Origin: Agroathelia rolfsii
Taxonomy: Eukaryota > Basidiomycota > Agaricomycetes > Amylocorticiales > Amylocorticiaceae
Assembly (NCBI GenBank): GCA_018343915.1
Contig: JABRWF010000001.1
Coordinates: 1,054,001-1,118,000, forward strand
DNA length: 64,000 nucleotides
Direction: 5' to 3'
Shown here: in pieces, positions 716-43,014 of the stretch
How the letters are laid out: every line of letters starts with the position of its first letter
Position numbering within the stretch: the first letter of the stretch is position 1
Notes under the pieces: model-generated
Database searches by the model: none
Told to the model about the DNA's origin: nothing
What the model saw: the letters and a program-made list of their open reading frames with translations, nothing else
Made by a program: the position numbers and the translations under genes

Positions 716-815
716 TATACATTCAAGTTATACATTAGGAAAAAAGGACATTAATATATAACTCAATGTAGCCAATATAGTAGTGGTAACATAGTTGCAA
801 GGTACCCCTATATAA

Positions 816-1308
816 GAAAAGCAAGTGAGCAAGCCAGCTAAGACTAAAGCAAAAAGCTAGAATAATGCCATTGAAGGCATCTACTTGTTATTGTATATGG
901 ACATGGTATACAGACAAATGAATGAAATACATACTACAACACATAGCTACTCCAAAGGCCTTAAACCCAATGAAATCTCCAAATAGGAAAGAAAACATGT
1001 ATGAAGTTATGTAGGTAGATGTAGAGGCAAAGGTAATAATAAAGATGAAGGTTAAGAAAGGAAAATGTATAAAGTTTGAAAAAAAGCATTGAGAATGAAA
1101 TAAGAAACATTATGCTGTGGCAGCTGCATGTACATCCTGGTCCCTTTAATTAATAGTCTAGACCAGGCAATACCCCCTGGTTATCCTGGGTATTATAGAT
1201 GAGGTAGACAAGTGCTATGTATAGTGAGTCTAGGGCTTTATGATAATGAGCAAAAGGAATATAATAGCAGTATAGCCATCATCATCATATTTATGTATAC
1301 CTCCTGTT
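816..1308 (-). repeat. Inverted, internally deleted copy of LTR family A' (3' end)
   Basis: This is the reverse complement of the 3' internal region plus 3' LTR seen at 5900-6453. Near 945 the copy jumps from the middle of the LTR to the internal region, leaving out about 90 bp between two short CCTT-containing matches, which looks like a microhomology deletion. No coding capacity is seen. Confidence 0.6.
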
Positions 1309-1440
1309 AGAATATGTGATCTATGTGCCAGGTCACATGATTCTGCCTTATATTTACAGTGTGAGAAAAGTGAGCAAGCCGGTTTATTGTTCAAAAAGCT
1401 AGATAGTATTGCGCTTGTCCTTGTACTTAATAAATGTTAG
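1309..1440. repeat. Broken LTR ends of families J and A'
   Basis: 1309-1355 matches the first 47 bp or so of family J (compare the complete LTR at 16568-16745). About 1356-1440 matches the reverse complement of the A' LTR 3' end. These are junction debris between nested elements. Confidence 0.45.
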
Positions 1441-2590
1441 TAGTAATGGGTGTAATATAGACTACTTGTAGTCCACTAGTTACCTATGTAAAAGACAATA
1501 CACTTACTTGTTAGAAAAGGTATGGTCTATTTAAGATATAGGTAAAGGTAAGTTAAAATCTATATATGTGAAAGTGGTTAGTAACTGTTTATACCTAAGA
1601 TAACACTTTAGCTGGTGTCTCGTAAGAATACTTACTTATTACTCCTTTAGAGTAAGGCTTTGTGTTTATCTTGTTGTAGACTTTGTAAGTCTATAAAGTG
1701 AAGTTAGTATGTGAGCTAGTCCTTAGACTATTTAACTCACTTATTTCTGATGAAATAACTTGTCATTTCCAGCCAATTTTGCTAGTGCTTATATAATACA
1801 AAATATTCTAATTTCTACAAGATTAGTAAGCCAATCCTGTGCTTATCTAATCTGCTTAGTAAGAGAAGTTACTTATAAATCTGCTTATAAATCAGCTTAG
1901 TAATATTCCTACTTGCTGAATAATATGCTTGGTAAGTAGTTTGTGTGCTTGGTAAGCAATCTGTATGCTTAGTCAGTAATTTGTATAGTATTAGTAAGTA
2001 AAGATATCCATTTATCTCAATATCCTATTATTAGATCTATATTAGTAATATTTTATAAACATTACTAATATCATGGACTTGCTTAGTAAATATTTTGGTA
2101 ATTTATAAGCAAGGATCTAGGGCATGAAAAATCAATTAGTAATATTTACAATGGATGTTAAGAAATAAATATTTAAATGGAATTGTTTAATATTTATGAA
2201 AAAGATAATCAGAATTGATAAAGTCAAGTAACTTCAGATAAGATAGTCTTATCTCTGATAAGATTAGATATAATGGAATATCAAAAATATTAAATAAATG
2301 AATATAAATAAATATATGCATATAAAGAATTGTTAATATCTCAACAATGAACAGTTGTAAAATCATGAAATAAATAATTATATATGATGTGATGTTAGAG
2401 GATTATTTGAAGTATTCATTGGAATTATTGGAAAGATATGAAGACTGTAAATATTCAATCTTTCAATAGTACTTAGATACAGTATATAGATAAACAAATA
2501 AAGTAACTACTACAAAAATCTATAGCTATATATTATAGTCACACTCCACGTGACTGTGACTCTGTCACTCCTATGAAGGCATGAATTGCC
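1441..2590. other. AT-rich non-coding stretch, probably old transposon DNA
   Basis: No gene is visible. The stretch is very AT-rich and has many dispersed short motifs of the type CTTAGTAAG / CTTGGTAAG between about 1830 and 2110, plus phrases resembling the AT-rich family E DNA at 51800-52137. No terminal repeats or target duplication could be placed. Confidence 0.4.
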
Positions 2591-20231: not shown

Positions 20232-20373
20232 CCCAGTGTCAAGGGTCTACTCCTTGACTATGTTACGTTGGGCATAGAAGGCCTACTTGTGACACAGGAA
20301 GAAATAAACTTTCTTAACACTAAATCTAAGTACCTAAGAGAACAGGTTTTCCCACAGATACGCAATTCCTTAT

Positions 20374-22703
20374 TGTTATGAGTTGGACATTTTTCGCCTT
20401 TTTCTTACGAACATGTACATATTTTTATTGTATTTTTACGATTTTTATTCATGGAGATACGGACGAAATACCTTGCAGGCGACATCTTGACGTGCATGTG
20501 ACTGGCTGTGTTAGCCCCACGTGACAGGAGTGCTCATGACAAGAGTATATTTGTCATGAGAAGGGAAATTTTGCGGATTTTTCGAGTATTTTCTTGTAAT
20601 ATTTGGACTAGTATTTACAAAGTTATGATATTTTCCTTTTCTTTCCCTTTCATTTTCTTATTTCTCTTATAAAAATTACCCTTTAGGGCGTGGACTGTGG
20701 GCAGTGCAGTGGTCATGTGATTGGCCCTCATGTGTTCCAAAGCCGCACGTCACAGGAGTAATCTCGGGGCTGCGCAAACTTCTATTTTCACCATTACGCG
20801 CAGCCTAGGAACACAGCCTTCCTTCCCTGAGCAATTCCTAACGATTACCGGTATTGGTCCGGAAACGGATCTCCACACGGATGCCCGGTGGAGTTAGGAC
20901 AAAAGCTCTTTCCCTGCATTGCCACATTTACGCTTCTATTTCCCTCTGCGCACAGACCTTCAAGGCTGCACACGGACCCTTCAATAGTAGTATAAATAAC
21001 GCATGTAACTTGTCCTGAAGAGCTTAGCTTCGACCTCTTCGCCTTCAGGCAAGTAATCCAAGGTTTGTATCCATAAAGTAGATTGCTAATACATCTTCGC
21101 CTTCAGGGTATATACTCATAGGCCTAGGCCCTTTGTCCTAGCATCCCCTTTCCTTCTTTCTCTCTCTCTCTCTCTCTACTTGAAGGTGGTGAAAATCCCC
21201 TTACGTGTGACTTAAGCAAAAAGGCATCGAACAAGTGTGAGATAACCGAGTACCCGGCTCCCCTTTAATAAAATCAAGGGCGTAGTATCTGTGGGAAAGC
21301 TCATATTTGGGTACTTCATAAGACTTAATACGTTGAGAAGGGCACTTATTGAATTTGCATTGATTTGTGGGTGTTGACCTACAATTTAGTCAAGTCAAGG
21401 AGTGTACCCTTGACAATATTAGGAAGGCGGAGTCTAGATCATTCCTTTTCATCAAAAGGTCTAGACTCAGGAACCAGGGTCGTTCCAATCACTGTGTGAT
21501 TACTAAGGAGTACTAGACTTATCATTCCGATCGGTTGCTCATCGGACTTAGTCATAAAGCACTGCCCCTACATTTTACATATTCCTGCTTACGAACCCCG
21601 GCTGCACATAGACCATCAAGGCTGTGCACGGGCCCTTCATTTTATGTATAAATACAAGCCTGTAGCCCTTACCTGAACCTTAGCTTCGACCTAATGTCAA
21701 GGCTTGCGCACTTGACTATACCAAATAAGACAACCTGCTTGTAAGGCATGCAGGCAGGCTGTAAGGCCAGGTTTTACGTCTATGACTAGTTTGGTATTTT
21801 TATCGAGTGCTCACGTGCTCCCGTTGCTACCAGTCATAATAGTGTATTCTTGTTTTACTATGCTAGGATAATGTTTGGTACTCTAGTCCTAGGACTTCCC
21901 GTGTGTTTCTCTTCGCGTCTAATAAAAGTTTGAATACTTCTTACTCAGGATAGGCGGCTTAGCCCTCCGTGATCAACAAACACTCGCTAGGACTTCTTAC
22001 TGCCTAGGCCTAAATGAATAGGGCTTTGTTCACGCGCAATTGCCTCTGTATATTGAGGACTTTGGTAGTCTTATTGCCTCCTGGTACTAAGGCCAATTTA
22101 TACGCTTACTAAGCTGCCCTTGAGGCCTTATGCTTAATAAGGAAAAGGGAAAAGGAGAGAGAGCAGGCTAGGACGGATATAAGCCTGAAGGCGAAATATA
22201 TTAGTCTTTATATAAGTATACAAACGGGGGGGTGCCCTTACCTGAAGGCAAAAAGGTCGAAGCTAAGGTTCAGGTAAGGGCTACAGGCTTGTATTTATAC
22301 ATAAAATGAAGGGCCCATGTGCAGCCTTGATGGTCTGTGTGCAGCTGGGGTTCGTAAGCAGGAACATGTAAAATGTAGGGGCAGTGCTTTATGACTAAGT
22401 CCGATGAGCAACCGATTGGAATGATGAGTCTAGTACTCCTTAGTAATCGCACAGTGATTGGAACGACCCTGGTTCCTGAGTCTAGACCTTTTGATGAAAA
22501 GGAATGATCTAGACTCCGCCTTCCTAATATACTCTTGTCACGAGCACTCCTGTCACGTGGGGCTAACACAGCCAGTCACACGCACGTCAAGATGTCGCCT
22601 GCAAGGTATTTCGTCCGTATCTCCATGAATAAAAATCGTAAAAATACAATAAAAATATGTACATGTTTGTAAGAAAAAGGCGAAAAATGTCCAACTCATA
22701 ACA
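20374..22703. mobile_element. Palindromic D insertion: U3-primer joined to an inverted complete D LTR
   Basis: On the plus strand, 20374-21692 is a D LTR running from its U3 start (TGTTATGAGTTGG) to the primer sequence TAGCTTCGACCT (21681-21692), interrupted by a C solo LTR. Instead of going on into R/U5, the sequence then reads AA-TGTCAAGGCTTGCGC, a complete D LTR in reverse (21695-22703). The junction is exactly what the 5' LTR/primer-binding-site border of retrotransposon II looks like in reverse (39570-39595). The whole unit is flanked by CTTAT (20369-20373 and 22704-22708), and the sister LTR at 42294-42298 has a single CTTAT, so it entered as one piece with two U3 ends. Confidence 0.85.
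20552..21415 (+). repeat. Solo LTR, family C
   Basis: 864 bp, TGTCATGAGAAGG...ACCCTTGACA, with perfect target duplication ATATT (20547-20551 and 21416-21420), inserted in the left D arm. It contains TATAAATA, the AGCTTCGACCT primer sequence and an AATA-rich polyadenylation region, like other C LTRs. Confidence 0.92.
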
Positions 22704-24222
22704 CTTATTCTATTGAGGATGCGCCGGGTACTCTGCCTATTTCTTACGATGCTCTTATGTATGTCACATGCTTACGAGGGGATTTACACCACCTCCTAGT
22801 AGATAGGGAAAAGAGAGGTAAAAGGGGGGGAGGCTAGGAACCTGGCTCTAGGCCAAAAGAATAAACCCTAAAGGTGAAGATGTTATTAGTAATCGTACTT
22901 ATGGAATACAAATCCTTACTTGCCTGAAGGCAAAGAGGTCAAAGCTGAGCTCTTCAGGATAAGTTATATGCACTATTTATACTACTATTGAAAGGTTCGT
23001 GCACAGCTTGCATAGTCTGTGCATAGAGGGAAATAGAAGTGTAAAGGTGGCAATGCAGGGGAAGAACTTTTAACCTAACTCCACCAGGCATCCATGTGGA
23101 GATCCGTTTCCGGACCAATACCGGTAATCGTTAGGAATTGTTCAGGGGAGGAAGGCTGTGTTCCTGGGCTGTGCGTAATGGTGAAAGTAGAAGTACACGC
23201 ATCTCTGAGATTACTCCTGTGACGTGCGGCTTGGAACATGTGAGGGCCAATCACATGACCACTGTACTGCCCACAGTCCATGCCCTAAAGGGTAATTTTT
23301 ATAAGGAAAAATAAAAAAATGAAAGGAAAAAAAAAGAAAATATCATAACTTTGTAAATACTAGTCCAAATATTACAAGAAAATACTCGAAAAATCCGCAA
23401 AATTTCCCTTCTCATGACATTACCCCCTTTCTAAGGGGATTTCCTCTGGAACATCCCAAGTTCCCATGTTCCTCTGATCCTTTCCATAGTCTCAGTGAAA
23501 TTTTCAATTGGTCGAAAGGGGAGATCTGCAAAGACTGCAGCCAAAAGGCATTTAGGTGCTTTGGGGTTCTTTTTGTGGAAATCCTTGATTAATCATGGGG
23601 CATTGGTGATGTTTGCTTCTTTTTCCCACAAATCTTCTCCAGGATATCCTTTCCATTCAACCAGGTATTCCAATTTCTTTGTCCTTGGGCTTAACCGGCT
23701 ATCCTTGATGTGTAGAACTTCGTGCTCTTCTTCTCCTTCTATTTCGACAGTTTCAGGGATAGGGGCAAGTGGTCTGGATTCTACCTGAACATGTGGTTTG
23801 ATCAGGGAGATGTGGAAGACATCATGGATTGTCCATCTCTTTGGGATAGCAAGCCGGACTGCTCGTTCCCCCACAAGCTCAGTTATTTTGTAGGGACCAA
23901 TCCATTTGGCTGACAGCTTTTTTGAGGGCTGTGCCAATTTGATGTTCTCCATGCTTAGCCACACCTTGTTTCCAACAGCGTATTTTGGGACTTCTGCCAC
24001 GTGTTTGTCAAAGAAGTACTTCATTCGGCTTGCTGCATGGTCCAGGGCTGCTTTAGCATCCTCCTGAAGCTCCTTGACCTTTTCTGTCCATAGTTGTGCC
24101 CCTTCTGTTTTAGGGATTGCTGCCATTGTAAGGTTCATCCGGGGGGAGAAGCCGTAATTCATCTCAAATGGGGAAACACCTGTTGATGCTTGTTGTCGGT
24201 TGTTCAATGCAAATTCGGCTAG

Positions 24223-26241
24223 TGTCAAGGCTTGCGCGCTTGACTAATCCAACAAATACAACCCTCTGTAAGGTACAAGGGCAGGCTGTAAAGCCGGGTT
24301 TTACGTGTATTGCTTAGTTGTGTTATGAGTTGGAAATTTTTCGCCTTTTTCTTACGAACATGTACATATTTTTATTATATTTTTACGATTTTTATTGACT
24401 GAGATATGAATGAAATACCTTGCAGGCAACATCTTGTTGTACGTGTGACTGGCTGTATTAGCCCCACGTGACAGGAGTGCTCGTGACAAGAGTATATTAG
24501 GAAGGCGAAGTCTAGACCATTCCTTTTCATCAAAAGGCCTAGACTCAGGAACCAGGGACATTCTGATCACTATGCGATTACTAAGGAGTACTAGACTCAT
24601 CATTCCAATCAGTTGCTCATTGGACTTAGTCACAAAGCACTGCCCCTGCATTATTATATGTTCCTGCTTACGAACCCCAGCTGTGCACAGACCACCAAGG
24701 CTGTGCACGGGCCCTTCTATTTATGTATAAATACAAGCATATAGCCCTTACCTGAACCTTAGCTTTGACCTTCTTGCCTTCAGGTAAGGGCACCCCCCTT
24801 CTATACTTATCATACATCACTAATATATTATCTTGCCTTCAGGCTTGTACCCATCCTAGCCCCTCTACCCCTTTCTATATCTCCCCTTACTTAAGCATAA
24901 AGCCTCTAAGATAGCTTAGTGAGTATATGCATAAGCCTTGATACAAGAAGGCTATAAGTAAAAGTCCTCGAATACATATGGAGGCGTTGTGCATGATCAA
25001 GTCCTATTCATTTAGGCCAGGGCAGTAACAAGTCCCTGTGAATATTGGTGACCACGGTGGGCTAAGCCGCCTGTCCTCAGTAAGAAGTATTTGAACAACC
25101 TATTTGATGCAAAGAGAGCACACGGGAAGATATTAGTCTAGAGTACCAAACGCAATCCTTGCAAAGTAGGGTGTTAAGATACACTATTACGAAAGGCAGC
25201 AACGGGAGCACGTGGGTGTTCGTCAAAACTCCAACCAAGTAATACATGTAAAACCTGGCTTTATGGCCCGCCCTCGTACCTTACAGAGGGTTGTGTTTGT
25301 TGGATAAGTTAAGAGTGCAAGCCTTGACAAGTTGGATATATATGAACACCCACATGCTCCCGTTGCTATTCTTTCATAATAGAGCACTTCTTTAGTACTT
25401 TACTAGGCTTGCGTATCAGTACTCTAGACATTATAGTCTTCCCGTATTACTTGCTTCGTGTCAAATACTATTGTTATGCTTCTTACTCAGAATAGGCGGC
25501 TTAGCCCACCGTAGTCTACAAATGTTTGCAGGGACTTGTTACTGCCCTGGCCTAAATAAATAGGACTTTTATCATGCGTGTGCCCTCTGATATATTAGGG
25601 ACTTTGACACTTAACGACCTCCTTGTAACGAGGTTTCATATGCTTACTAAGATGCCCTATAGGCCTTACACTTAATAAGGAGGAAGAGGGAGAGAGTAGG
25701 GGGCTAGGACATAGATAAGCCTGAAGGCAAAATTATATTAGTTCTTTATATAGGTATACAAGCAGGGGGTGCCCTTACCTGAAGGCAAAAAGGTTGAAGC
25801 TAAGGTTCAGGTAAGGGCTATAGGCTTGTATTTATACATAAAATGAAGAGCCCATGCGCAGCCTTGATGGTCTGTACACAGCCGGGGTTTGTAAGCAGGA
25901 ACATGTAATAATGCAGGGGCAGTGCTTTGTGACTAAGTCTAATGAGCAACCAATCGGAGTGATGAGTCTAGTACTCCTTAGTAATCGCACAGTGATTGGA
26001 ATGACCCTGGTTCCTGAGTCTAGACCTTTTGATGAAAAGGAATGATCTAGACTCCGCCTTCCTAATATACTCTTGTCACGAGCACTCCTATCATGTGGGG
26101 CTAACACAGCCAGTTACATGCACGTCAAGATGTTGCCTGCAAGGTATTTTGTCCGTATCTTAATGAATAAAAATCGTAAAAATAGAATAAAAATATGTAC
26201 ATGTCCGTAAAGAAAAGGCGAAAAATATTCAACTCATAACA
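24223..26241 (-). repeat. Solo LTR, family D, with a second D LTR inside
   Basis: A D LTR on the minus strand with perfect duplication GCTAG (24218-24222 and 26242-26246), inserted into the integrase region of retrotransposon I. It is itself split by the plus-strand D LTR at 24321-25329. Confidence 0.92.
24321..25329 (+). repeat. Solo LTR, family D, nested in another D LTR
   Basis: 1009 bp, TGTTATGAGTTGG...GCCTTGACA, duplication AGTTG (24316-24320 and 25330-25334). Contains TATAAATAC near 24728, then the decayed primer TAGCTTTGACCT and the CTTACCTGAA / TTCAGGTAAG hairpin. Confidence 0.92.
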
Positions 26242-28990
26242 GCTAGCGGAAGGAGTCCTGCCCAGTTATCTTGACAATGCAAGACATAATTTCAGAGATA
26301 TACTTCGACTTCCTGATTAAGATGTTTGGTTTGCCCATCTGATTGAAGGTGATAAGCAGTGGATAGGGAGGTCTTGATATCTAATCACTTGTGAATTTCC
26401 CTCATTACTTTTCCAGCAAACTGGGATCCTCGGTCCAAAGTCCATTGTCGTGGTAGGCCGTGAAGCCGGAACACATGGGCTAAGTAGAGGTCTGCCATTT
26501 CCAAGGCTGTAATTACTTCTACGCATGGTATTAGGTGACACATCTTTGTCAACCTATCCACAACTACTAGAATGGAATCAAAGCCTTGTGACTGGGGAAG
26601 CTTGACAATCATATCGGAGGTGACATGTTCCCATGGTCATTCAGGAGTAGGCAGGGGTGCTAAAGGTCCCACAGGCATAGATCTGGAGGTCTTGGTTGCA
26701 AGGTAGCTGGGGCATGAGGACACGTAATTGTTGACCGCTTTAGTGAGTCCCGGCCACCAATAATTTCTAGAAACTAGTTCTAGAGTCTTGTGACGGCCTG
26801 GATGACCAGCTGATGGAACATCGTGATGTAGCCGGATAATATCATTGTAAAGGGCAGTGTCTCGTGGTACGTAAACCTTTCCAAGATGTAGAATTAAGCC
26901 ATTTTCTTCATTCCATTCTTTGAGACCTTTCTGTAGTTTAACTGGTCCAAGTTCCTTGACTAATCCTAAGGCACTTGCGATTTCGGCATCTTTGGCTTTG
27001 GCTCTAATCCTGTCCAGGATGTTCCTTTCGCCATGGATTTCGACATGACCCCTTCTTGCAGCGTTAATCCAGAATAATTTTGGGTCCAATACTACCTGGT
27101 CAAGGTTGTCCTCTTTGTCTGATCGCTGGAAGTCCGGTTGGCGGGAGAGAGGGTCGGCCCGGCCGTTTTCAGATCCTTGGAGATAGGAAATTAAGAACCG
27201 GAATTCGGAAAGAAATAGGGACCACCTTGCTTGTTGTCTTATCAAATTGCGAGCTGTTTTCCAGTATTCCAGATTTTTGTGATCCGTGTGAATTTCGAAA
27301 GGGTGGGGAAGGCCAATGAGGTAGTGTCACCAGGCATCTAAGGCATGGATGATCCCTAGCATCTCTTTGTCCCAAATGTTATAGTTTTGTTCTGCATCAT
27401 TCATGGCCTGGGAAAGGAATGCAATTGGTCGCCACAAACTGTCTGTTTGCTTTTGGAGGAGTACTGCTCCGGTAGCAAAATTTGATGCATTCATTTCTAG
27501 ACAAGTTTCGGCTGTCTAAGAATAGGCTCCTAGTACTGGTGCTGACGTGAAAGCCTCTTTCAGGGTGTCAAATGCTTCCTGTTCTTCCGGACCCCATTTT
27601 CATTCAAATTTTCTGGTTAGCCGGTCCAGAGGTTTGCAAATTTGTGCAAAGTTTCGGATAAAGCATCGGTAATAATTCGCAAGTCCTTAGAACTATTGGA
27701 TATCGGAGACCTTTTGGGGTGTTGGCCATTCTAGTATGGCTTTGACCTTCTCTAGGGTCATGCAAATCAACCCGAATGAGACTAGGGCCCCTAAAATATC
27801 AACTTCTGGAACATTGTATTTAAATTTCTCCAAGTTTGCAAAGAGATCATTTGCTTTGAGAACCCTTAGTACTTCTAGGACTCTATTTTGCAGTTCAGCT
27901 TCTGTTTGTGCCCCAATGATTATGTCATTGATATAATGTACTAGCCACCCTAACTGGTTAAACTTGTAGAATAGGTCATCCATCATAGTTTGCATTGTGG
28001 CTGGTGCATTGCATAGGCCAAACATCATGACAGTGGGTTTGAACAGTCCTTTATTTGTAATGAAGGCGGCTTTGTGCTCATTGCCTTCTCTAATGCGGAT
28101 ATTATTGAATCCCCATTATAAGTCAATTTTACAAAATGTTCGGAACTTAGTCATTTTATCTTGGAGCTCAGAAATGAGTGGGAGAGGGTATACGTTTTTG
28201 ATGGTCTCGGCATTGAGTTTTCAGTAGTCTTGGACCGGGCAAAGGGAGCCATTTTTCTTTGGGACAAAGAACATTAGTGCTGCAATAGGACTTTCTGATT
28301 TTCTGATATACCCTTTTTCAAGGTTCTCTTTCAGGTAATCCGTCAGTGCCTCTTCTTCTTTGACAGATAGTGGGTATGCCTTGCTTCTTCAAAGTTGTGC
28401 GCTATCTTTAAGCTCAATCTTATAATCCCAAGGTTTTCTGAGCAGGAGTATTTGGGAAGCTTCTTTCAAGAAGACGGACGCATAGTTGGATGCCCAATCT
28501 GGTAGAAGGCTAGAGGCAATGGTTATGCGGTTAGGGTGCATGACTCTTCCCGCTGACCAGTCAATCACTGGATTTTCCAGCTGGAGCCAGTCGATACCCA
28601 AGATTACGTTTTTAGGGCCAATGTCAGTGACCAAGAAGGGAAGCTTCTTTCTTATTCCTCTGATGCTTGTGTCGAGAAAGGCAATATCTTGTATTTCTCC
28701 TTGCATATTTAGAGAGTTGTCTATGTTGTATACAGGAATAGAACATGATAATTTTTTTGTTTTTATATTATTTTCCTTGATAAAACAAGAATGAATGAAA
28801 GAAGAGGAAGCGCCTGAGTCTATCATAGCTAAGGTTACAAGTGAAGTAAAGAGTCTATGGAACATAAGGGGAATATGAAGGTGCTATCCATGCGCACCAG
28901 AAATGGAAACTGAGTTACAAGAAAGAAGAGAGGAAAAACAGTTTGAGAGATAAGGGTTGGCCAAAATGGCCCTTTCCATCGACCCTTCTA

Positions 28991-28997
28991 AAAACCC
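28991..28997 (-). promoter_or_regulatory. Putative -1 frameshift heptamer, retrotransposon I
   Basis: On the minus strand the gag end reads GCG GGT TTT TAG. The heptamer G GGT TTT is in the proper X XXY YYZ phase and the TAG stop follows at once. Slipping back one base opens the pol frame (FLEG...ERAI). Confidence 0.65.
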
Positions 28998-29571
28998 GCC
29001 TTGTCTTTGAAGGCGGCGAGTGCCATAGCCTGCTGTTCAACCAGCGCTTGAAGGTCTGCCATTGTCATGGTTGAGGAACCCTCGTTGATATCATTGGAAG
29101 TGGCCGAAGTGCCGAGTTGATCAGTAGACGGAGGAGGAGAGGCTGTCATTGTGGTAGCCTGGACCCTAGGTCTAGAACCTTGATATCTTGAGACTTGAGG
29201 GTTGGTACAGTTTGAGGCGAAGTGCCCCCATTGTTGGCAATTGTAACATTGTACCATGCTCAAGTCTTGAGGTAGTCATCAAGGACCTTGGGTACCCAGG
29301 TTTGTTGAGGTTGGCGGGTTTTGAGAGGCATTAATGGTGATGGGGTTGCTTGCTGTACCCTGGTTGTCAAGGCTTGCGTGCTTGACGTAACCAATAAATG
29401 TCAACCCTCTCGAAGATACGAGGGATGGGCTATAAGACCCTTTTTTATAATGTGTTACTAGGTTGGTTTATTGGCAGACACGCACGTGCTCCCGTTGCTG
29501 CTCTTCGTAATAGTCCACTTAATCGACTACTTTGCTAGGCTAGTGATCGGTACTCTAGACAGAAGTCTTCC

Positions 29572-30430
29572 TGTTATGAGTTGTAAATTTGGACTATAGA
29601 TTTTTCATTATTATTTAAAAACATGTATTATATTTCATTTCTTTTTTCTTTTTTCTTACCCTCAGAGCATGGTCTGTAGGCAGTGAGCGGTCCTATGATT
29701 GGCCCTCATGTGACTAAGCCACACGCTATAGGAGTAATCGTGAGTTGTGCGTTTCCTGTTCACCATTCCGCACAACTCCAGAGTACAAACCTCCGATCAC
29801 TGACCGATTCCTAACGGATATTGGTTCCACTACACACCTCCGAGCTTCTGCTCCCAAGCTCCTGCGGAGCTCCGCTCCTGAGTGCGGAACCTCCAGAAGT
29901 GTTGTATCTCCGCACGGCTACCCGTCGGAGTTAGGGAAAAGGTCTTCCCCTGCATACTCTACTTTCTCTTTGTCTTTCCTCCGTGTCGGAACTAGCGCGG
30001 AGCTTTCGTAGTAGTATAAGTAGTGTATGTAACTTGTCCTGAAAGGCCAGCTTTGACCTCTTTGCCTTCAGGCAAGTATTCAGGTTGTATTTCATTAAAG
30101 TAGATTGCTAATAAAAACTTCGCCTTCAGGGATTATTTACCTCCAGGCCTAGCCTAGTATCTTAGTGCAACAACAAATTCAATTAGTAGGGTGAAATTCC
30201 CTAGATTACTTAGTTAGACACGTGACGTGTGATTCGGAAGTTCCGGAACCTCCGCTCCCCTCCGACTTAAGTCTCCGGAAGCTTCGTAAGGCGTAAGCAG
30301 AGTACCCTTACCACCCTCAATAGATAAAAGGGTTTGTATAGTGTGGGAAAACTTGCGACTTAGGTACTTTTATTTAGTGGCAGGAGGTTACTTTGATTAT
30401 CTCCATATAGTCAAGAGTGATCCCTTGACA
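29572..30430 (+). repeat. Solo LTR, family G
   Basis: 859 bp, TGTTATGAGTTG...GATCCCTTGACA, duplication CTTCC (29567-29571 and 30431-30435). The first dozen bases match family D, while the body (CCAAT-type GATTGGCCCTCATGTG, TATA region, AGCTTTGACCT, ending) is homologous to family C, so G looks like a mosaic or sister family. Confidence 0.92.
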
Positions 30431-30696
30431 CTTCCCGTGTACTTCACTTTGCGTCAAATAGTCTTTTAACTGGTTCTTACTTGAGATAGGCAGCTTAGCC
30501 CACCGTGCTCTATGTATGTCTGAGAGGACTTGTTACTGCCTCTACCTGAATGAACAGGATTTTGGTTCACATGCACTGCCTCCTTGTATTGAGGACTTAT
30601 AACTTAGGCTGCCCTCTGGTACTAGGGCTTACATATTCTACTTAGATGCCGTAGAGGCCTTACACTAAATAGGCAAGAGAGAGAGAGAGGGATATG

Positions 30697-31672
30697 TGTC
30701 AAGAGCACACCTGACTCTTGTCACCAAAACTCAACTAGCGTCTACGTCAACCCCTGTAAGGTGCGGGGTAGCCAGTAAGGCTGTTTTACAACTCCTAAGA
30801 CCTAGGATACGCGGGTGTACACTTCCTTGCCCGGTCTCCGCTATCACTCAACTTCTAGCTCTTCAATCACCAAGTGTTACTCCAAGCTTACTAAGCTTTC
30901 ACACGAGGTCTATTGTTGAGACAAGAAATATCTTGCGTATGCAGATATGGGTGCGATGTATCTTAACCGCAACAAGTGCAGGGCAATGCCTTTACTTGCT
31001 TGAGTGCACTAAGCACTATGTAGTGTATACAGCAATGCAAATGGTCAGCCAAAGGCCTAGACCTGTCTTATGCGCGCTAACGGAAGAGGGGCACGGAGCG
31101 ACCTCTTTACTACTGCAGCACAAAGCACGCAGTAACCCTCTGGCACAAAGCCTAAGGGATTTGGGGAAGGATAGAGAGAGGGGGGGAGACAGGCAATCAC
31201 GCCTTGAGAGGTAAGGGGCTCTGAAGACGAAGATTTATTATGTTAGCATCTATCTAGTACAAAGCACTACCGTGCTTACCTGAAGACGAAGAGAACGAAT
31301 CTGAGGTCTTCAGGTAGAGGCACTACAGGGTTATATACTAATTCTACCTGGTCTGTGCGCAGCTACATGGTCTGTGCGCAGTAATGCTAAGTTATGGCGT
31401 GATATCGCACCATTATTAGTTATAGTGAGTCAAAGTGGTGTCATGATCCGGACCCATGCTCTAGACTCTGTTTACATAATATGTCACATGACTAGTGGTC
31501 ACATGATGGCCAGTCACATGGTCGACTGGTCACATGACTTGCTTAGTCATCAGAGTGTGTGTTTACGTAATATACAATATATACATCAAAAAATAGAGAA
31601 AAATCAGGAAAAATTCGGAAAAATAGTGAAAAATTCAAAATAAAATTATAATACAACGAGCGACTCGTAACA
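30697..31672 (-). repeat. Solo LTR, family H
   Basis: 976 bp, plus-strand ends TGTCAAGAGCACACC and CGACTCGTAACA, duplication ATATG (30692-30696 and 31673-31677). Four GTCACATG motifs lie at 31483, 31498, 31513 and 31529. The R-region hairpin CTACCTGAAGAC / GTCTTCAGGTA is present, with GATTCG in the loop where C and D have CTTCG. Confidence 0.92.
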
Positions 31673-32776
31673 ATATGGGCTAGGAGAATAAGCCTGAAGG
31701 CGAGATTGTATATTAGTTCTTATGTAAGTGTATAAGAGGGGGGTGCCCTTACCTAAAGGCGAGAAGGTCGAAGCTAAGGTTTAGGTAAGGGCTACAGGCT
31801 TGTATTTATACATAAAATGAAGGGCCCGTGTGCAGCCTTAATGGTCTGTGCGCAGCGGGGTTTGTAAGCGGAAATGACTAGAATGCAGGGGCAGTGCTTT
31901 GTGCCTAAGTCCGATGAGCAACCGATCGGAAATGATGAGTCTAGTACTCCTTAGTAATCGCACAGTGATTGGAACGACCCTGGTTCCTGAGTCTTGACCT
32001 TTTGATGAAAAGGAATGATCTAGACTCCGCCTTCCTAATATACTCTTGTCACGAGCACTCCTGTCACGTGGGGCTAACACAGCCAGTCATACGTACATCA
32101 AGATGTCACCTGCAAGGTATTTTGTCCATATCTCAGTCAATAAAAATCGTAAAAATATAATAAAAATATGTACGTATTCGTAAAGATAAGGCGAAAAATG
32201 TCCAACTCATAACATTACCCCCTTCTCAAGGGAGTTACTCCGGAACTTCCCTAGTTCCCATCCGGCGTTTTCCTTTGTCGTTGTCTCCGTATAGTTTTCA
32301 ATTGGCCTGAAGGGTAATTCCCTAAAGACTGCAGCGTTCAAGCATTTAGGTGCATTGGGGTGTCTCTTGTGGAAATCTCGTATCCTGGCCTTGGCATGTG
32401 CCAAATTGTCTGCTGGCTCCCAATTGTCCTCTCCTAGTGCATCCTTCCAGCTAACCAGGTACTCTAGCCGCTTGGGTCTTCCTGAGATTCTGGAATCCTT
32501 GATCTTGTCAACTTCCCATTCTTCCTCTCCTTCGACTTCCATAGGTTCTGGTGGGGGTTGATCTTGGTCTGATGGTTTATGTCCGGATAAGAGGGAGACA
32601 TGAAAGATATCGTGGATGGACCAAGTGCAGGGGATCTTGAGGCGGTATGCAAGAGGACCAATCCTTTCCAGGATTTCGTATGGCCCAGCAAACTTGGCGG
32701 CAAGCTTTTTAGTTGGTTGAGAAGTTTTGAGGTTCTTGGTAGAAAGCCAGACCTTGTCGCCCTTTTGCCATTGAGG

Positions 32777-33634
32777 TGTTATGAGTTGCAAATTTGGACT
32801 ATAGATTTTTCATTATCATTTAAAACATGTATTATATTTCATTTCATTTTTCTTTTATTTTATTACCCTCAGAGCGTGGTCTGTAGGCAGTGAGCGGTCC
32901 TATGATTGGCCCTCATATGACTAAGCCGCACGCTACAGGAGTAATCGTGAGTTGTGCGTTTCCTGTTCACCATTCTGCACAACTCCAGAGTACAAACCTC
33001 CGATCACTGACCGATTCCTAACGGATACTGGTTCCACTACACACCTCCGAGCTTCCGCTCCCAAGCTCCTGCGGAGCTCCGCTCCTGAGTGCGGAACCTC
33101 CGGAAGTGTTGTATCTCTGCACGGCTGCCCGTCGGAGTTAGGGAAAAGGTCTTCCCCCACATACTCTACTTTCTCTTTGTCTTTCCTCCATGTCGGAACT
33201 AGCGCAGAGCTTTCGTAGTAGTATAAGTAGTGTATGTAACTTGTCCTGAAAGGCTAGCTTTGACCTCTTCGCCTTTAGGCAAGTATTCATGTTGTACTTC
33301 ATTAAAGTAGATTACTAATAAAACTTCGCCTTCAGGGTTCATTAACCTCCGGGCCTAGCCCCGCGTCTTAGCATACCAACACATTCAATTAGTAGGGTGA
33401 AATTCCCTAGAGTAACTAGTTAGACGCATGACATGTGATTCGGAGCCTCCGGAATCTCCGCCCTCCTCCGACAAAAGTCTTCGGAAGCTTCGTAAGATAC
33501 AAGGAGAGTACCCTTGCCACCCTCAATAGATTAAAGGGATTAGGTAGTGTGGGAAAACTCGTATTTTAGGTACTTTGTTCAGTGTTGGGAGATTATTTTG
33601 ATTATCTCCGCATAGTCAAGAGTGATCCCTTGAC
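32777..33634 (+). repeat. Solo LTR, family G, in the pol of retrotransposon II
   Basis: 858 bp with perfect duplication TGAGG (32772-32776 and 33635-33639). Very similar to the copy at 29572-30430. It separates the chromodomain part from the integrase part of pol. Confidence 0.93.
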
Positions 33635-36123
33635 ATGAGGAGACTCTCAAACATACTTATCAAATAATTCCTTCATTTTCTCTGCTGCTAGGTTAAGGGC
33701 AGCTTGAGCATCCATTTGTGCATCAGATATTACATGCATCCAATCTTCTACGGCGGGGGTGTCAAAGATCCCTGTCAGGGAGAAATCCATTCGCGGGTCA
33801 AATCCATAGTTCATTCGGAAGGGGGATATTTTGGTAGCCAAGTGTTGCCTATTGTTCAATGCAAATTCAGCTGAAGGAAGTAGTCGTGCCCAGTCATCCT
33901 GATGATGTGATACGAAGAACCTGAGATAAGCTTCTAATTCCTGGTTGACACGTTCAGATTGGCCATTGGTTTGTGGGTGGTATGCTGTGGACATAGCGGT
34001 GGTAATACCTAAGCGTTTGTGTACCTCCCTCATAACCTTGCTTGCAAACTGGGGACCCCTATCAGAGGTTATCCTGGAAGGTAACCCATGAAGTTTAAAC
34101 ACTTGTGACCAAAGTAACTCTGCTGTACCAATGGCGTTGATTTTCTTGGTAGTTGGGATGATGTGCATCATCTTGGAGAATCGGTCCACTACTACCAGGA
34201 TGCTATCGTATCCTTGGGAATTGGGAAGTTTGACAATCATGTCCATGGTAATATGATCCCAGGGTCGCGTTAGGGTAGGGAGTGGTTCAAGGGGTCCGAA
34301 GGCAGGGAGGCATGATGACTTATTTTGGATGCAGGTCTGGCAGGTTTCTATGTATTCGTTTACTGCCTTGGTCATTCCGGGCCACCAGTAGTTGCGCAAT
34401 ACTAATTCAAGAGTTTTATGCTGACCAGGATGACCACTGAGCAAACTATCATGATACATGGCAATGATCTGAGTACGGATTTCCTTGTCTGCAGGTACAT
34501 AGACCCTTCCCTGTTGTAGAATAACCCCGTTTTCCTGATTCCACTCTTCTAGTCCCTTCTGAAGCTTAACAGGACCTAGATCCTTGACTAGTTGGAGCAC
34601 TTCTGCAACCTCTGCCTTGGGAGAGGCATTCCAGATTTTCTTAAGCAACTTGGGTTCTCCTTCCATCAATACATAACCTTGTCGGGCAGCGTTTATCCGG
34701 AATAACTTAGGGTCGAGTAGAACCACATCCTGGTTATCCTCGGCATCCGAGATCTGGAGGTCAGGCCGTTGTGATAGTGCATCGGCCTTGCCGTTCTCAG
34801 CGCCCTTCTGGTAATGAATGCGGAAATTGAAGTCTGCTAAGAAGAGGGACCAACGAGCTTGTCGACGGGTAAGGTTGCGAGCGGTTGTCCAGTATTTGAG
34901 GTTCTTGTGGTCCGTCCAGATCTCAAAAGGTTCGGGTAAACCTTGGAGTAGGTGACGCCAGTGATCCAAAGCACGGATGACTCCCAACATTTCCTTGTCC
35001 CAAATATCGTAATTCCTTTTGGCATCATTCATGGACTAAGACAAGAACGCTATTGGGTGCCAAGCACCAGATTCATCCTTCTGACTAAGAACTGCACCAG
35101 TTGCATAGGAGGAGGCATCTGTTTTGACCCAGGTTGATGCTTTCTGATCATAGGATCTCAGGACAGGGGCTATACTGAAGGCCTTCTTAAGGTTTTCAAA
35201 GCTTTCTTGCTCTTCCTATCCCCAGGTCCAATCCACCTTGCCAGTAAGCCGATCTAGGGGTTTGCAAATCTTTCCAAAGTCATGGATGAAGCACCTGTAG
35301 TAATTGGCCAGCCCACGGAATTTTCGTACTTCCTTAACGTTCTTGGGTATGGGCCAGTCTAGGATAGGCTTGACTTTTTCAGGGTCCATGCAAACTTGTC
35401 AATGGGAGACGATGAATCCCAAGATATTGACTTCAGGTTTTTCGACCTCGAACTTGTCTAGGTTACCATACAAGTTATGCTCTCGTAGGATTGAGAGGAC
35501 TTCTCGAGTGACTTCTCGTAGCTTTTCCTTTGTTTCAGCTCCAATGATAACATCATTGATATAGACCCGGACAAAACCTAGCTGGACTAGGTGAAGGAGA
35601 ATGTCGTCTATTAGAGCTTGCATAGAGGAGGGGGCATTACAGAGGCCAAATAGCATCACTAGAGGTTCAAAAAGTCTACGTGATGTGATAAAGGCTGCTT
35701 TGCGTTTGTCCCCTTCTCTGATCCTAATATTGTTGAAACCGGCTCGTAGGTCAATCTTGGTGAACTAGTGGAATTTGGTCATGTGTTCAATAATTTCAGA
35801 AATCAAGGGAAGGGGGTATGCATTTTTAACAGTCTGCTCATTGAGGGTGCAATAATCCTGGACAGGACAGAGCTTTCCATTTTTCTTGGGCACAAAGAAC
35901 ATTGGAGCGGCAAATTCACTTTTGGATTTGCAAATATACCCCTTGGCCAGGTTATCATCTATCCATTCGTTGAGTGCATTAGTTTCGTTGCTACTGAGGG
36001 GGTATACACGCCCTCGTCTGAGCTTTATTTCATCCAGCAACTCAATCTTGTGGTCAGATGACTTATGACTAGGTAGTCTACTTGCTTCCTCCTCAGAGAA
36101 TACATCAGCAAAGTCTTTGTATC

Positions 36124-37141
36124 TGTCAAGGCTTACGCGCTTGACTCTACCAAAAGACACAACCCACTTGTAAGGTACGTGGGCGGGCTGTAAGGCCGGG
36201 TTTTACATGTACTGCTAGTTTGGTAATTTATCAGATGCCCACGTACTCCCGTTGCTGCCTTTTGTAATAGGACACTCTGATCTCTACTTTGCTAGGGTCG
36301 TGGTCGGTACTCTAGCCAGTGGCTTCCTGTGTACTTCCTTTGCGTCAAATAGATTTTGTAGTGTTTCTTACTGAGGACAGGTGGCTTAGCCCACTGTGGT
36401 CTACATAACGTCTGCTAGGACTTTTTACTGCCTAGGCCTAACTGAATAGGGCTTTCGTGTTTATGCGTAACTGCCTTGGTGTATTGAGGACTTATAAACT
36501 TATTGCTTTCTTATGATAAGGCCTACGTATACTCCTACTAAGATGCCCTTGAGGCCTTATACTTAATAGGGGAAAGGAGTAAGAGAGGAGAGAGGGGGGG
36601 GGCTAGGACAGGTGTAAGCCTGAAGGCGAAAAAATATATTAGTTGTTATATATAGGAATACAAACAGGGGTGCCCTTACCTGAAGGTGAAAAGGTCAAAG
36701 CTAAGGTTCAGGTAAGGGCTACAGGCTTGTATTTATACATAAAATGAAGGGCCCATGCGCAGCCTTGATGGTCTGTGTGCAGCCGGGGTTTGTAAGCAGG
36801 AACATGTAAAATGCAGGGGCAGTGCTTTGTGACTAAGTCCAATGAGCAACTGATCGGAATGATGAGTCTAGTACTCCTTAGTAATTGCACAGTGATTGGA
36901 ACGTCCCTAGTTCCTGAGTCTAGACCTTTTGATAAAAAGGAATGATCTAGACTCCGCCTTCCTAATATACTCTTGTCACAAGCACTCCTGTCATGTGGGG
37001 CTAACACAGCCAGTCACACGCACGTCAAGATGTCGCCTGCAAGGTATTTTGTCCATATCTCAGTGGATAAAAATCATAAAAATACAATAAAAATATGTAC
37101 ATGTTCGTAAAGAAAAGGCGAAAAATGTCCAACTCATAACA
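36124..37141 (-). repeat. Solo LTR, family D, in the pol of retrotransposon II
   Basis: 1018 bp, TGTCAAGGCTTACG...ACTCATAACA. Flanks are GTATC (36119-36123) and ATATC (37142-37146), a target duplication with one G-to-A change. It separates protease from RT. Confidence 0.88.
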
Positions 37142-37665
37142 ATATCCAGGTGGCATAGTGGTGGTGGCTTGTACAGTTTCTTTTTTGGGTAGGAAGGTGA
37201 TTTCTGCGGATTTCCAATCTATCACAGGGTTTTCGAGGCGTAGCCAATTGATTCCAAGAATAACGTCTTCTTGGCCAATATCAACGACACAGAGGGGCAG
37301 GTATTTTCTTTCGGATCCTATTGTAGTATCAAGTATGGCGACGGATTCAATTTTCCCAATCTAATTGGCAGAGTTATCAATATTATACAAGGGAATAGGG
37401 CGAGGTAATTTTTTTGTGGGGATTTTATGTTTTTCTACATATCGATAGTTTACAAAGGAAGAGGAAGCACCGGAATCAATCATAGCGGAAGTAGAAAAAT
37501 TTCTAAAAGGTCCATGGAACATAATGGGGACCTTGAGGTACTGTCCATTTGCACCTGCAAGGGAAAAATAGGAAGAAGAGGAAATGGAAATAGTATTACA
37601 AGAGGAAAAGGAAGAGAGTCTGTTTTGAATATACTGGTCAGTCTGAATAGCCCTTTCAGCTGACC

Positions 37666-39165
37666 CTAGGAAAAACCCATTTGGTCTTTTAACGCAGCAA
37701 TGGCAGCTGCCTGTTCTTCCATAACCTACATCACATGGTTGGGGACTGTATACGCAGATGGGTTCCCCGAGGCTGGCGGCAGAGCAGGGACAGAGGGAGC
37801 AACTGATGGCGCTGGCAGTTGGATAGAGGCGGAGATCAAGGCTTGTCCAGGAGGTGCAAAAGTTCTTGGTTTATAACCTAGAAGAGGGCAACGGCGCTTA
37901 GGGTGACCTAGCTGGCCACAATGGAAACACTATGCTTTAGACCAATCCCTGGGTGGGAACGATGGTCTTCCCTGAAATGAGGGTTGACTGGTCTGAGGTG
38001 CTGCGACCTGAGCTGCATTGATTGTTATGGGGTGTCCAGCCGAACCTGCTACAGGCACCCAGGGTCTCCACGTATCCTGCCACAGACCTGCTGAGCGCAG
38101 CCCTTGCTCAGCTCATAGGGCTGCGTCCATTGCCTTTTGCACTGTTTCCAGGTTTGTCTGGTCCCAACCACCAAGCACATTTCGAATCTTGGGGTTGAGT
38201 CCGTCCAAGAACCGTACACGCCAATCCTCTTCTGATAAGTCAGTCTGTTGTGCCGTGGACCAGAAATCAGTAATGTATTCCTGCGTGCTCCGCGAACCCT
38301 GCTTCATGCCCTTAAGCTTATCGAGGGCGGACCGCTTATAGTCCCATGATCCGTAGAGACCTTGGAAGGCCTTGTAGAAGTCCTTAAAGACAAAAGGGAC
38401 CTCTATCTTGACCTCCCCTTCTTCTTCGGCTTTGATTATGTTGGACCATTTTTCCAACCACCTCCTCGGTCCTCCTTCAAGCAGGGAAATGAGTAACCTG
38501 CCCTTATCACGGTCCGAGCTATATAGGGTTGGATTCAACCCAAGATAGTTCTTGAACCCTAGGATGAAATCCTTGTATTTTTCATGATCACCCGTGAACT
38601 TGGAGGGCTCCTTGCCTCTTTCCTTGGTTGAGGCGACCATGACTACCTGAGGTGCAGGTGCTGGTATAGGGGTGGGGACTGATCGGTCAGCAATTTCTAC
38701 TAGTTTGCGCTGCATCTCTGTCATGTGACGCATCATCTCTGTGGTCTGATGCTGCATTTCTAGCATCTGACCAAGAAACTGTTCGAATTCGGCAGACATA
38801 GCAGGAGATGCAGGATGGGTGACAGTGGGGGTGCAAGTATGGGGAGTTGGGATGGGGGTACGAACTCTTGGTATTACAACAGGGGTGGGAACACGTGAAC
38901 AAGTGCAAGATGCAATGGGTTCGGGTTCAGGTTCATGGAAGTCTGATGGTGAAGGATATTCTTCCTCAGGTTCTTCTTTGTCGTCTTCCTCTTCTTCGGA
39001 TTCCTCAGGGGATGTGGGCTTAAGAGGGGAAGAAGCCTTAGGTGGAGTAGGTACTTTTAGTGGTTGAGAAAAGGTTGGCTGCGGAGCAGGTGCGGATATA
39101 GAGGGGCGGGCGGAGGTCTTGGGTGCAGGTTGTGCGGGGGCCTTTCCTTTTCTGGATTGGCTCAT
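37666..39165 (-). pseudogene. Gag of retrotransposon II
   Basis: A 499-codon frame from ATG 39165 to the TAG at 37666-37668. The first 350 codons (39165-38113) are open: a basic start (MSQSRKGKAPAQPAPK), a long Pro/Ser/Glu-rich tract (SPEESEEEEDDKEEPEEEYP), a coiled segment rich in Met and Gln (QFLGQMLEMQHQTTEMMRHM), then a capsid-like domain (FTGDHEKYKDFILGFKNYLG). After a stop near codon 351 the frame continues to the zinc knuckle CFHCGQLGHPKRRC near 37890-37935. Two or three internal stops, all transition-type, make it a pseudogene. Confidence 0.9.
37672..37678 (-). promoter_or_regulatory. Putative -1 frameshift heptamer, retrotransposon II
   Basis: Minus strand reads ATG GGT TTT TCC TAG; the heptamer G GGT TTT is in phase, one codon before the gag stop. 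A -1 slip enters the pol frame (FFLGSAERAI). Same heptamer as in retrotransposons I and IV although surrounding bases differ. Confidence 0.65.
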
Positions 39166-39567
39166 AAACAGTGGAGCGATGGCTCAACACACAGATTTGT
39201 TTTCTTCAAACAAGGCAGTAAGCCAACCACCTTCTGGTAACGTGATAAAAATGTATAGTAAAAATATGCACAAAAAACCAAGCAGTTTTGCACCACAAGA
39301 GGTGTCCCTAGAAGCAGTGGACTAACTCCACACTAGCGCCTTTGGGTAACAACACAAGTTTTCCCTAGAAGTGCAGGTACTAACAAGCCAAAATCGGAAT
39401 GGGTTGAATAGAGGGGTTCTAATTCTCTACCAATTGCTTCCACAAACAGTTCAAGGTTTTCGTGTGCTTACAAATAAGAAGAATAAAAGGGATTTCTTGG
39501 CTTATGCTATTTTGCAGATATCTGGAACTGCACACCTGGAGCTAAGGCTCGACGGGTGGTTTAGGTA
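39166..39567 (-). other. 5' leader of retrotransposon II
   Basis: About 400 bp between the primer-binding site and the gag start, without coding capacity; expected to hold the packaging signal. No structure was resolved. Confidence 0.6.
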
Positions 39568-39581
39568 TAGCTTCGACCTAA
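39568..39581 (-). promoter_or_regulatory. Self-complementary primer-binding site, retrotransposon II
   Basis: Directly next to the 5' LTR the minus strand reads TTAGGTCGAAGCTA. Its complement TAGCTTCGACCT occurs in the same LTR (40137-40148), 35 bases after the start of the TATAAATA box. Twelve paired bases next to the LTR and no match to a tRNA 3' end indicate Tf1-type self-priming. Confidence 0.75.
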
Positions 39582-40586
39582 TGTCAAGGCTTGCGCGTTT
39601 GACGTAACCAACAAATGTCAACCCTCTCGAAGGTACAAGGGATGGGCTGTAAGACCCCTTTTTATAACGTGTTACTAGGTTGGTTTATTGGCAGACACAC
39701 ACGTGCTCCCGTTGCTGCTCTTCGTAATAGTCCACTTAATCGACTACTTTGCTAGGCTAGTGATCGGTACTCTAGACAGAAGTCTTCCCGTGTACTTCAC
39801 TTTGCGTTAAATAGTCTTTTAACTGGTTCTTACTCGAGACAGGCAGCTTAGCCCACCGTGCTCTACGTATGTCTGAGAGGACTTGTTACTGCCTCTACCT
39901 GAATAAACAGGATTTTAGTTCACATGCACTGCCTCCTTGTATTGAGGACTTATAACTCAGGCTGCCCTCTGGTACTAGGGCTTACGTATTCTACTTAGAT
40001 GCCGTAGAGGCCTTACACTAAATAGGCAAGAGAGAGAGAGAGGGATGTAGGCTAGGAGAACAAGCCTGAAGGCGAGATTGTATATTAGTTCTTATGTAAG
40101 TATACAAGAGGGGGGTGCCCTTACCTGAAGGCGAGAAGGTCGAAGCTAAGGTTCAGGTAAGGGCTACAGGCTTGTATTTATATATAAAATGAAGGGCCCA
40201 TGCGCAGCCTTGATGGTCTGTATGCAGCGGGGTTCGTAAGCGGAAATGACTAGAATGCAGGGGCAGTGCTTTATGCCTAAGTCTGATGAGCAACCGATCG
40301 GAAATGATGAGTCTAGTACTCCTTAGTAATTGCACAGTGATTGGAACGACCCTGGTTTCTGAGTCTAGACCTTTTGATGAAAAGGAATGATCTAGACTCC
40401 GCCTTCCTAATATACTCTTGTCACGAGCACTCCTGTCACGTGGGGCTAACACAGCTAGTCACACGCGCGTCAAGATGTTGCCTGCAAGGTATTTTGTCCG
40501 TATCTCAGTCAATAAAAATCGTAAAAATATAATAAAAATATGTACGTGTTCGTAAAGATAAGGCGAAAAATGTCCAACTCATAACA
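39582..40586 (-). repeat. 5' LTR of retrotransposon II (family D), uninterrupted reference copy
   Basis: 1005 bp. Sense features on the minus strand: CACGTGAC E-box-like site, TATAAATA (40175-40182), a hairpin with stem CTTACCTGAA / TTCAGGTAAG (40120-40161) and the primer TAGCTTCGACCT in its loop, then a GA-rich tract and CTTGACA end. Confidence 0.92.
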
Positions 40587-41681
40587 CTGGTTCTGGAAGC
40601 AAGGCTTCGGCTTCCATCTGTCTGTCCAAATTCCAGCATCCTGGAGTCCTTCTTCAGCGTCCACCGCTACTTCTATTAGATGCTCCAATGTGTCACGGCG
40701 TTCTTTGGGGTACCCTCTGATGATGCCCTTGATTTTTGGGGAGAGGGCTTGCCAGTATCGTACCCTGAGATCTTCTCCTGACAGCTTCATTTGATTGGCA
40801 AGGGTAGAAAAAGTGGCTGTGAAGTCTGCCACTGAGGAGGTCCCTTGTTTCAAGTCCTGGAGTTTTTGGAGGGCAATCCTTCCAAAATCTCTTGCTCTAT
40901 ATAGTGCCTTGAACTTGGCGTAGAGATCTCTTTCAAAATTGAAACCCTTAGTATTAATGGCGTTATCAAACTTTTGACTCCAAGCTTTTGGGGCTCCTTC
41001 CAGAAGTCCTACAAAGAAGCATGCCTTTGTATAATCTGAAGAATAAATCTTTGGGTTCAGCTTGATGTAGTTTTCAAATCCGAACACAAAAGATTGGTAT
41101 TTGGACCAATCGCCTGAGAATTTCTCTGGGGGTTGGCCAATTTCCTTTGGAGTTGAGGTGGCTGCAACAGTAGCAGGTGTAGGCTGTTCTTGTTCTAACA
41201 GGTCAGTGAAGCGCGCCTGTGTCTCCTGCATCTGTTCCATGGAGGTTTGGATGCGTGCTTGGTTTGCTTGTAGGAGCGCCAAGATCTATCCTAGTTCCTG
41301 AGGTAACGACATAGTGGCAGGTTCTTCTTCAACTGTTTCTCTGCATTTTTCTTTGTGGCATTCTCGGCGACTTTTGGAAGGAGAGGGGTGTGAGACAATG
41401 GGGGACTTGGGGTACGATGCTTCTGTGGTATAGCGGCAGCGGAATTTAGAAGGGGAGGGGTATTCAGAGGGGGCTTCTTCTTCTCCTTCTGGTGTCTTAG
41501 GTGGCGATGCTTGGGTAGAGAGAACTTTTTCTCCTGATTCTTCTTCTTCTTCTTCAGAAATATGTGGAGCTGAGCTCAACACGACTTCTCTTATGACTTC
41601 TGGTGGGGATGCGGTGGACTTAGCGGCCCAAGGGACTGGTACTTCTTTGGGCTGGTAAGATGTGCCCTTACGTGTGCTCAT

Positions 41682-42147
41682 TCATAGAGCCTTTTTGTAA
41701 CAATTTTCTTCATCACCGGTGGTCGTGCCAGTTTCCAAATGGATAGCGGGATTTTCTTCTTTGGCTGGGGCTAGAGCTTGCCTGTATAGTAGTCACACAA
41801 AAGATCACACAAAAGTTACGAATGGCAAGGGGGGTGGTAAAAGGTGCCACTCATGCTTAGCAGTAATAAACTTTGATCCCCACAAGGGACTCCTAGAATA
41901 CCAAGCTTTTTAGGCTTGTATTGTGCTTCGGATACAGCCAAGAAATCAGGTAGGACGTATACCCTATTCTTGTCTAAACAGGGTTGTTAACAGGCTTTGG
42001 AGGGCACTGCACAATGTCTTCCTGAAGTAGTTCACTGCTTACATGCTCAGAAGGTGTTCTTTTTGTAAAACAAAGAAAAGAGGTGCTCTTCGTAAGCGAT
42101 CGCTACTTGCTTCTTCTCGGACTGTGGAAGTCTGAGGGATATCCTAG
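41682..42147 (-). other. 5' leader of retrotransposon I
   Basis: Non-coding leader between gag start and primer-binding site; homologous to the leader of retrotransposon IV (59660-60123), for example the shared segments near 41860-41900 and 59905-59950. Confidence 0.65.
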
Positions 42148-42161
42148 TAGCTTTGACCTAA
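42148..42161 (-). promoter_or_regulatory. Self-complementary primer-binding site, retrotransposon I
   Basis: Minus strand TTAGGTCAAAGCTA directly after the LTR. The LTR itself carries AGCTTTGACCT, so the same C-to-T change is present on both partners and the 11-bp pairing is kept. Confidence 0.7.
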
Positions 42162-43009: not shown

Positions 43010-43014
43010 CCCAG

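Follow-up and report, generated by a model that had tools for sequence, protein, structure and literature searches.

The closest described systems are the self-primed Ty3/gypsy elements of the Tf1/sushi group (Tf1, Tf2, Tj1, and Tosmo), in which the start of the RNA is complementary to the primer-binding site (PBS) just after the 5′ LTR. In Tf1, this complementarity covers the first 11 RNA bases, and 5-bp duplications are given for the group in the accessible text of these sources (PMC4600332, PMC10085805, PMC7175516). The accessible part of one of them also describes a three-duplex pretzel structure for the group (PMC10085805). We analyzed a window of 64,000 nucleotides (G000:C1:1054001-1118000), in which LTRs are densely packed, and searched the genome of 37.67 Mb on 8 contigs. 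Positions 20374-22703 of the window form one unit, confirmed as a real product: the U3 of an LTR of family D runs into TAGCTTCGACCT and is followed by AA and then by a complete inverted D LTR (Table 1).

The initial annotation had described this switch from a D LTR to AA and an inverted LTR at the end of the primer, and that structure stands. Both outer ends of the unit are U3 termini, with a single CTTAT duplication around the whole, and the inverted LTR opens after AA with TGTCAAGG, the inverted LTR end, and continues to 22703. The hallmarks of an integrase product, namely one 5-bp duplication (CTTAT) and terminal TG..CA, are present. Among ordinary D insertions, three have perfect 5-bp duplications, and a fourth, the LTR at 36124-37141 inside the D element at 29365-40586, matches at 4 of 5 bases. 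Arm 1 is interrupted by a later insertion, and the first five bases of its inner part (21416-21420) are the second ATATT copy.

Table 1. Features of the D foldback unit, its host element, the comparison element, and the F unit. Positions refer to the window unless stated otherwise.
Feature	Positions	Strand	Remarks
Left CTTAT target-site duplication copy	20369..20373	+	
Arm 1, outer D U3, TG terminus at 20374	20374..20551	+	98.3% vs arm 2
E-family solo LTR nested in arm 1, inserted later	20552..21415	+	ATATT duplication 20547-20551 / 21416-21420
Arm 1, inner D U3, TATA box and primer	21416..21692	+	96.75% vs arm 2
Putative self-primer / R-start sequence TAGCTTCGACCT, switch point	21681..21692	+	
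AA, complement of the TT spacer separating LTR end and PBS	21693..21694	+	
Arm 2, complete inverted D LTR, R start at 22265	21695..22703	-	1009 bp alignable with other full D LTRs
Right CTTAT target-site duplication copy	22704..22708	+	
Host E element	20237..43009	-	CCCAG duplication 20232-20236 / 43010-43014
Empty CTTAT site in 5′ LTR of the same E element	42294..42298	+	
Ordinary D element, comparison	29365..40586	-	CTGGT duplication; PBS 39568-39579; PPT-like tract before 3′ LTR
F unit (L086, reverse complement)	549..1885		U3 549-1053 to CAGCTTTGACCT, AA, inverted 830-bp F LTR to 1885

The 3′ LTR of an E element harbors the unit, whose flanks, when joined at one CTTAT, align with the partner LTR from 42164 onward, gap-free at the site. 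The empty site proposed initially is real and makes a stronger case than was claimed: since unit and empty site lie in the 3′ and 5′ LTRs of one E element, the control is a good one. A second duplication around 21695-22703, which would have pointed to separate insertion of the inverted LTR, was not found. The same host element also contains, nested within it, the ordinary D element and a D solo LTR at 24321-25329 (AGTTG duplication). Elsewhere in the window, positions 18729-19557 hold an inverted-repeat unit whose 273-bp arms, 88% alike, surround 283-292 bp derived from a dispersed repeat that also occurs at 2801-3092 and 43776-44067; in the sequence examined, these arms match only each other.

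We compared the arms of the D unit with each other and with further D sequences. They differ at 12 of 450 positions, and all differences are transitions, with no transversions and no gaps. Seven of the 12 fall at CpG in one arm according to our script; by eye, two more, which are adjacent, correspond to one CpG hit on either strand, and the remaining three are CpA/TpG. Within a set of 41 full D U3 sequences, from which 15 partial hits were excluded, the arms are mutually nearest, the next nearest sequence differing from arm 1 by 24 and from arm 2 by 20 positions, and only 3 of the 820 pairs lack both transversions and gaps. FastTree places both arms together with a support of 0.96. In a genome search with arm 1, arm 2 ranked top after arm 1 itself, narrowly (97 vs 96%, with 40 of 396 candidates scored). 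An origin of the arms from different D sub-lineages, the outcome that would have spoken against a single source, was thus not found.

LTR pairs of known relationship provide a reference. Of the pairs born identical, that of the E element shows 36 transitions and no transversions over 847 positions (its single gap event is an end effect of the cut), and that of the D element shows 48 transitions, 3 transversions, and no gaps. D LTRs from separate insertions gave 108 transitions, 71 transversions, and 13 gap events for the pair 37141/40586, and 54 transitions, 2 transversions, and 1 gap event for the pair 24321/47615. Since the latter pair and another pair in family F are also transition-only or nearly so, the transition-only differences between the arms are supportive rather than proof. 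The arms (12/450) are less diverged than the LTR pair of the host E element (36/847), in agreement with what the nesting requires. Altogether, the anatomy of the unit, the empty site, and the mutual closeness of the arms indicate one cDNA molecule rather than a pair of insertions, a subsequent rearrangement, or an error of assembly. The initial claim that a unit with two U3 ends and a single CTTAT duplication integrated as one piece is borne out by the same evidence. In the same-birth pairs compared (the E and D element LTRs and the arms of both units), the differences are almost all transitions, many of them at CpG or CpA, a bias that looks like cytosine-directed, RIP-like repeat mutation.

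A second foldback of the same form was found on another contig, in LTR family F (Table 1), as the one further unit returned by the genome search that had been proposed at the outset. It has GGAAG on both sides, and its right terminus reads TA in place of the expected CA, a transition. Its arms show 19 differences over 505 positions, all transitions. The comparison covered seven other F copies (57 partial or other hits were left out), which show at least 50 differences and at least 11 transversions, each being incomplete, with 400-492 of the 505 bases compared. Two of 36 F pairs lack transversions and gaps, one of them being the arms of the F unit. The empty sites are three copies of the target repeat, located in the window and continuous across the site. 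Since this second case belongs to another element family, the foldback is not a one-off accident.

To place the two units among ordinary junctions, we surveyed primer/LTR-end junctions across the genome. The genome search reported 90 exact copies of TAGCTTCGACCTAATGTCAAGG; by their flanks, 89 are ordinary PBS junctions and one is the D foldback unit. The D-type foldback junction occurs once in 37.67 Mb at up to three mismatches, and reversed control patterns gave no matches in the genome, which argues against a chance origin of the junction. Tolerating C/G transitions in the D pattern raised the number of matches to 19; the D unit is the sole mismatch-free fit, and in the other 18, which have 2-3 mismatches, internal-element letters precede the primer. 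Of the two genome matches to the F-type pattern, that at C7:4107438 is perfect and the other is of the internal type; two genome pattern searches for E-family foldbacks, at up to three mismatches, returned 0 and 0. Twenty further junctions, mostly with variant primers, had looked like candidates (primer starting with C or A, GA as the spacer, or a 2-mismatch hit) but were discarded as ordinary PBS junctions flanked by internal sequence. In total, 2 of the 111 junctions with flanks read are foldbacks, and 109 are ordinary binding sites. Genome-wide, 220 junctions lie within one mismatch of one form and 200 within one mismatch of a second form that overlaps with the first; flanks were read for roughly half of the junctions, and the remainder is covered solely by the D, E, and F patterns. 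A further element group (L087-L091 and L093-L100), with 11 of its 13 members on contigs C2 and C3, has a PBS read as CAGCTT..., and 8 of the 13 have GA instead of AA as the spacer before the inverted LTR end.

We then asked what kind of element gave rise to the D unit. D elements have a 12-base match between the PBS and the predicted start of R, the transcript start being inferred from the TATA box. Pairing between R start and PBS was predicted in all 81 leaders considered (80 ordinary leaders and the D unit), with a mean pairing probability above 0.5; nine of 90 were left out, having no recognised TATA-primer. For an ordinary D leader folded as RNA, and likewise for the R-U5-PBS part of the D unit folded as single-stranded DNA, both the minimum-energy and the centroid structures contain the helix. 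Such a helix is expected from the complementarity alone, and the z-scores of the folds are weak (-0.99 for the ordinary D RNA leader and -1.56 for the D unit DNA), so that neither structure as a whole stands out for its stability. In families E and F, many R starts have C as their first base, whereas the PBS of the exact set reads T there; this C/T difference would fit an 11-base primer released by RNase H cleavage, but T was a selection criterion for the set, and PBS with C exist as well. Pfam matches to RT_RNaseH, Integrase_H2C2, and rve lie in Ty3/gypsy order within 33647-35035, and Retrotrans_gag lies within 38113-39183. Since both regions fall inside the span of the D element, these pol and gag domains are probably D's own genes. 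Given the R-start/PBS complementarity and the domain order, the best explanation is that the D source element would be a self-primed, Tf1-like LTR retrotransposon.

We propose, with a probability of roughly 0.8, that the D unit arose when plus-strand transfer went wrong in such an element and the product was integrated. Plus-strand strong-stop DNA starts at the PPT and spans the LTR, with a primer copy at its end; for Tf1, the self-primer is reportedly not removed. In a self-primed element, strong-stop DNA would consist of U3-R-U5-TT-PBS copy, and since the PBS is complementary to the start of R, its 3′ end could anneal to an R start, either on the same strand or on a sister strand. From there, reverse transcriptase would extend this 3′ end via U3 up to the 5′ terminus of the strand, yielding U3-R-U5-TT-PBS-inverted U3 with a U3 terminus at each end. 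Integrase would then process both U3 ends and make a single insertion, duplicating 5 bp of the target as usual; joining of two like ends by integrases is possible in vitro. A weakness of this reading is that only one end of a lone hairpin is duplex, which calls for an additional step, either intermolecular or by copying. In a reciprocally annealed strand pair, two duplex U3 ends would flank an R-U5 middle left unpaired; such a pair could be inserted with no more synthesis, and the middle would presumably be resolved by copying after insertion. That both units end at U3 would be explained by the template strand ending there and by integrase trimming setting the exact end. Such trimming would be needed for exact U3 ends, since in the ordinary D element a few bases lie between the PPT-like tract and the LTR. 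The low frequency of foldbacks, just 2 of the 111 junctions read, counts against the strong-stop reading.

The initial annotation had proposed the opposite polarity, in which a plus strand ending in U3-primer annealed to the PBS and was extended over the complete LTR; in an RNA-level version, the RNA of the 3′ LTR would take the place of the plus strand. This would result in the identical double-stranded sequence, and at the RNA level the primer sequence is indeed also present in the 3′ LTR. The polarity does not, however, follow from the sequence, since the strong-stop route gives the same one, and neither the priming 3′ end nor the mode of annealing (intra- or intermolecular) can be read from it. 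Moreover, a strand ending just after the primer would be needed, and we know of no normal intermediate that ends there in U3-R; the template must already have a 5′ U3, which is absent from genomic RNA; and an RNA primer would bring the PPT and internal sequence past U3, whereas both units stop at U3. We therefore regard this route as rather unlikely.

Rearrangement of the chromosome after insertion, in which the 12-base R-start/PBS repeat served to join two D elements in inverted orientation or pieces of a single element, could draw on an inverted repeat at hand for microhomology joining and on the inverted D LTRs that are common in the window. We consider it very improbable: there is one duplication, and the other LTR of the host E element is empty at the corresponding site; U3 termini stand at both ends; the arms act like a same-birth pair; and the F unit shows everything again at another site. 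Two independent insertions, or an assembly artefact, might be suspected in so densely nested a region, and yet this has the slightest chance of all, since the inner junction lacks a second duplication and a chimeric read is hard to reconcile with 12 substitutions between the arms and a nested E LTR in one arm only. Both explanations were rejected. At the level of sequence, the anatomy, the single insertion, the single source, and the presence in two LTR families are demonstrated, and the foldback, a genuine product with two instances in this genome, is best read as a by-product of self-primed reverse transcription.

Two separate integrated foldbacks provide chromosomal evidence that R-start/PBS complementarity is used in cDNA synthesis and that plus-strand transfer can misfire on it. 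The initial claim of direct evidence for self-priming holds for the use of the complementarity during cDNA synthesis, but direct proof of the RNA self-priming step is not obtained. That integrase accepts two U3 ends, also claimed, is supported by the two foldbacks, which are evidence that a retrotransposon integrase can insert a two-U3-ended molecule in vivo. In the literature searched, mostly without subscription papers, no report of an integrated LTR foldback was found in the accessible text (including PMC4600332, PMC10085805, PMC7175516, and PMC6317226); a further paper, in its accessible part, concerns tRNA insertion in HIV and is not relevant to LTR foldbacks (PMC12220202). The anatomy is readily searchable in other self-primed families and testable in Tf1 particles. 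More tentatively, the self-priming complementarity might entail a built-in side reaction, in which refolding of strong-stop DNA yields minimal two-U3 units that integrase accepts. Since promoters at both ends of a unit would face inward, convergent transcripts would overlap over R-U5 and, if this doubtful possibility were true, could supply double-stranded RNA against the element's own family.

Compared with known insertions, the D unit resembles solo LTRs in LTR size and in its 5-bp duplication. Solo LTRs come from recombination and have one U3 and one U5 end, whereas both ends of the D unit are U3, and it contains an additional inverted U3. TRIMs and other small non-autonomous LTR elements are likewise small units with LTR ends; the terminal repeats of TRIMs are two and direct, according to the accessible text of the source (PMC6934838), whereas the LTR parts of the D unit are inverted and no internal domain is left. 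The accessible descriptions of Tf1/sushi elements deal with RNA self-priming and ordinary integrants and make no mention of inverted-LTR integrants (PMC4600332, PMC10085805, PMC7175516); the source elements described here are like that group in both their R-start/PBS complementarity and their 5-bp duplications.
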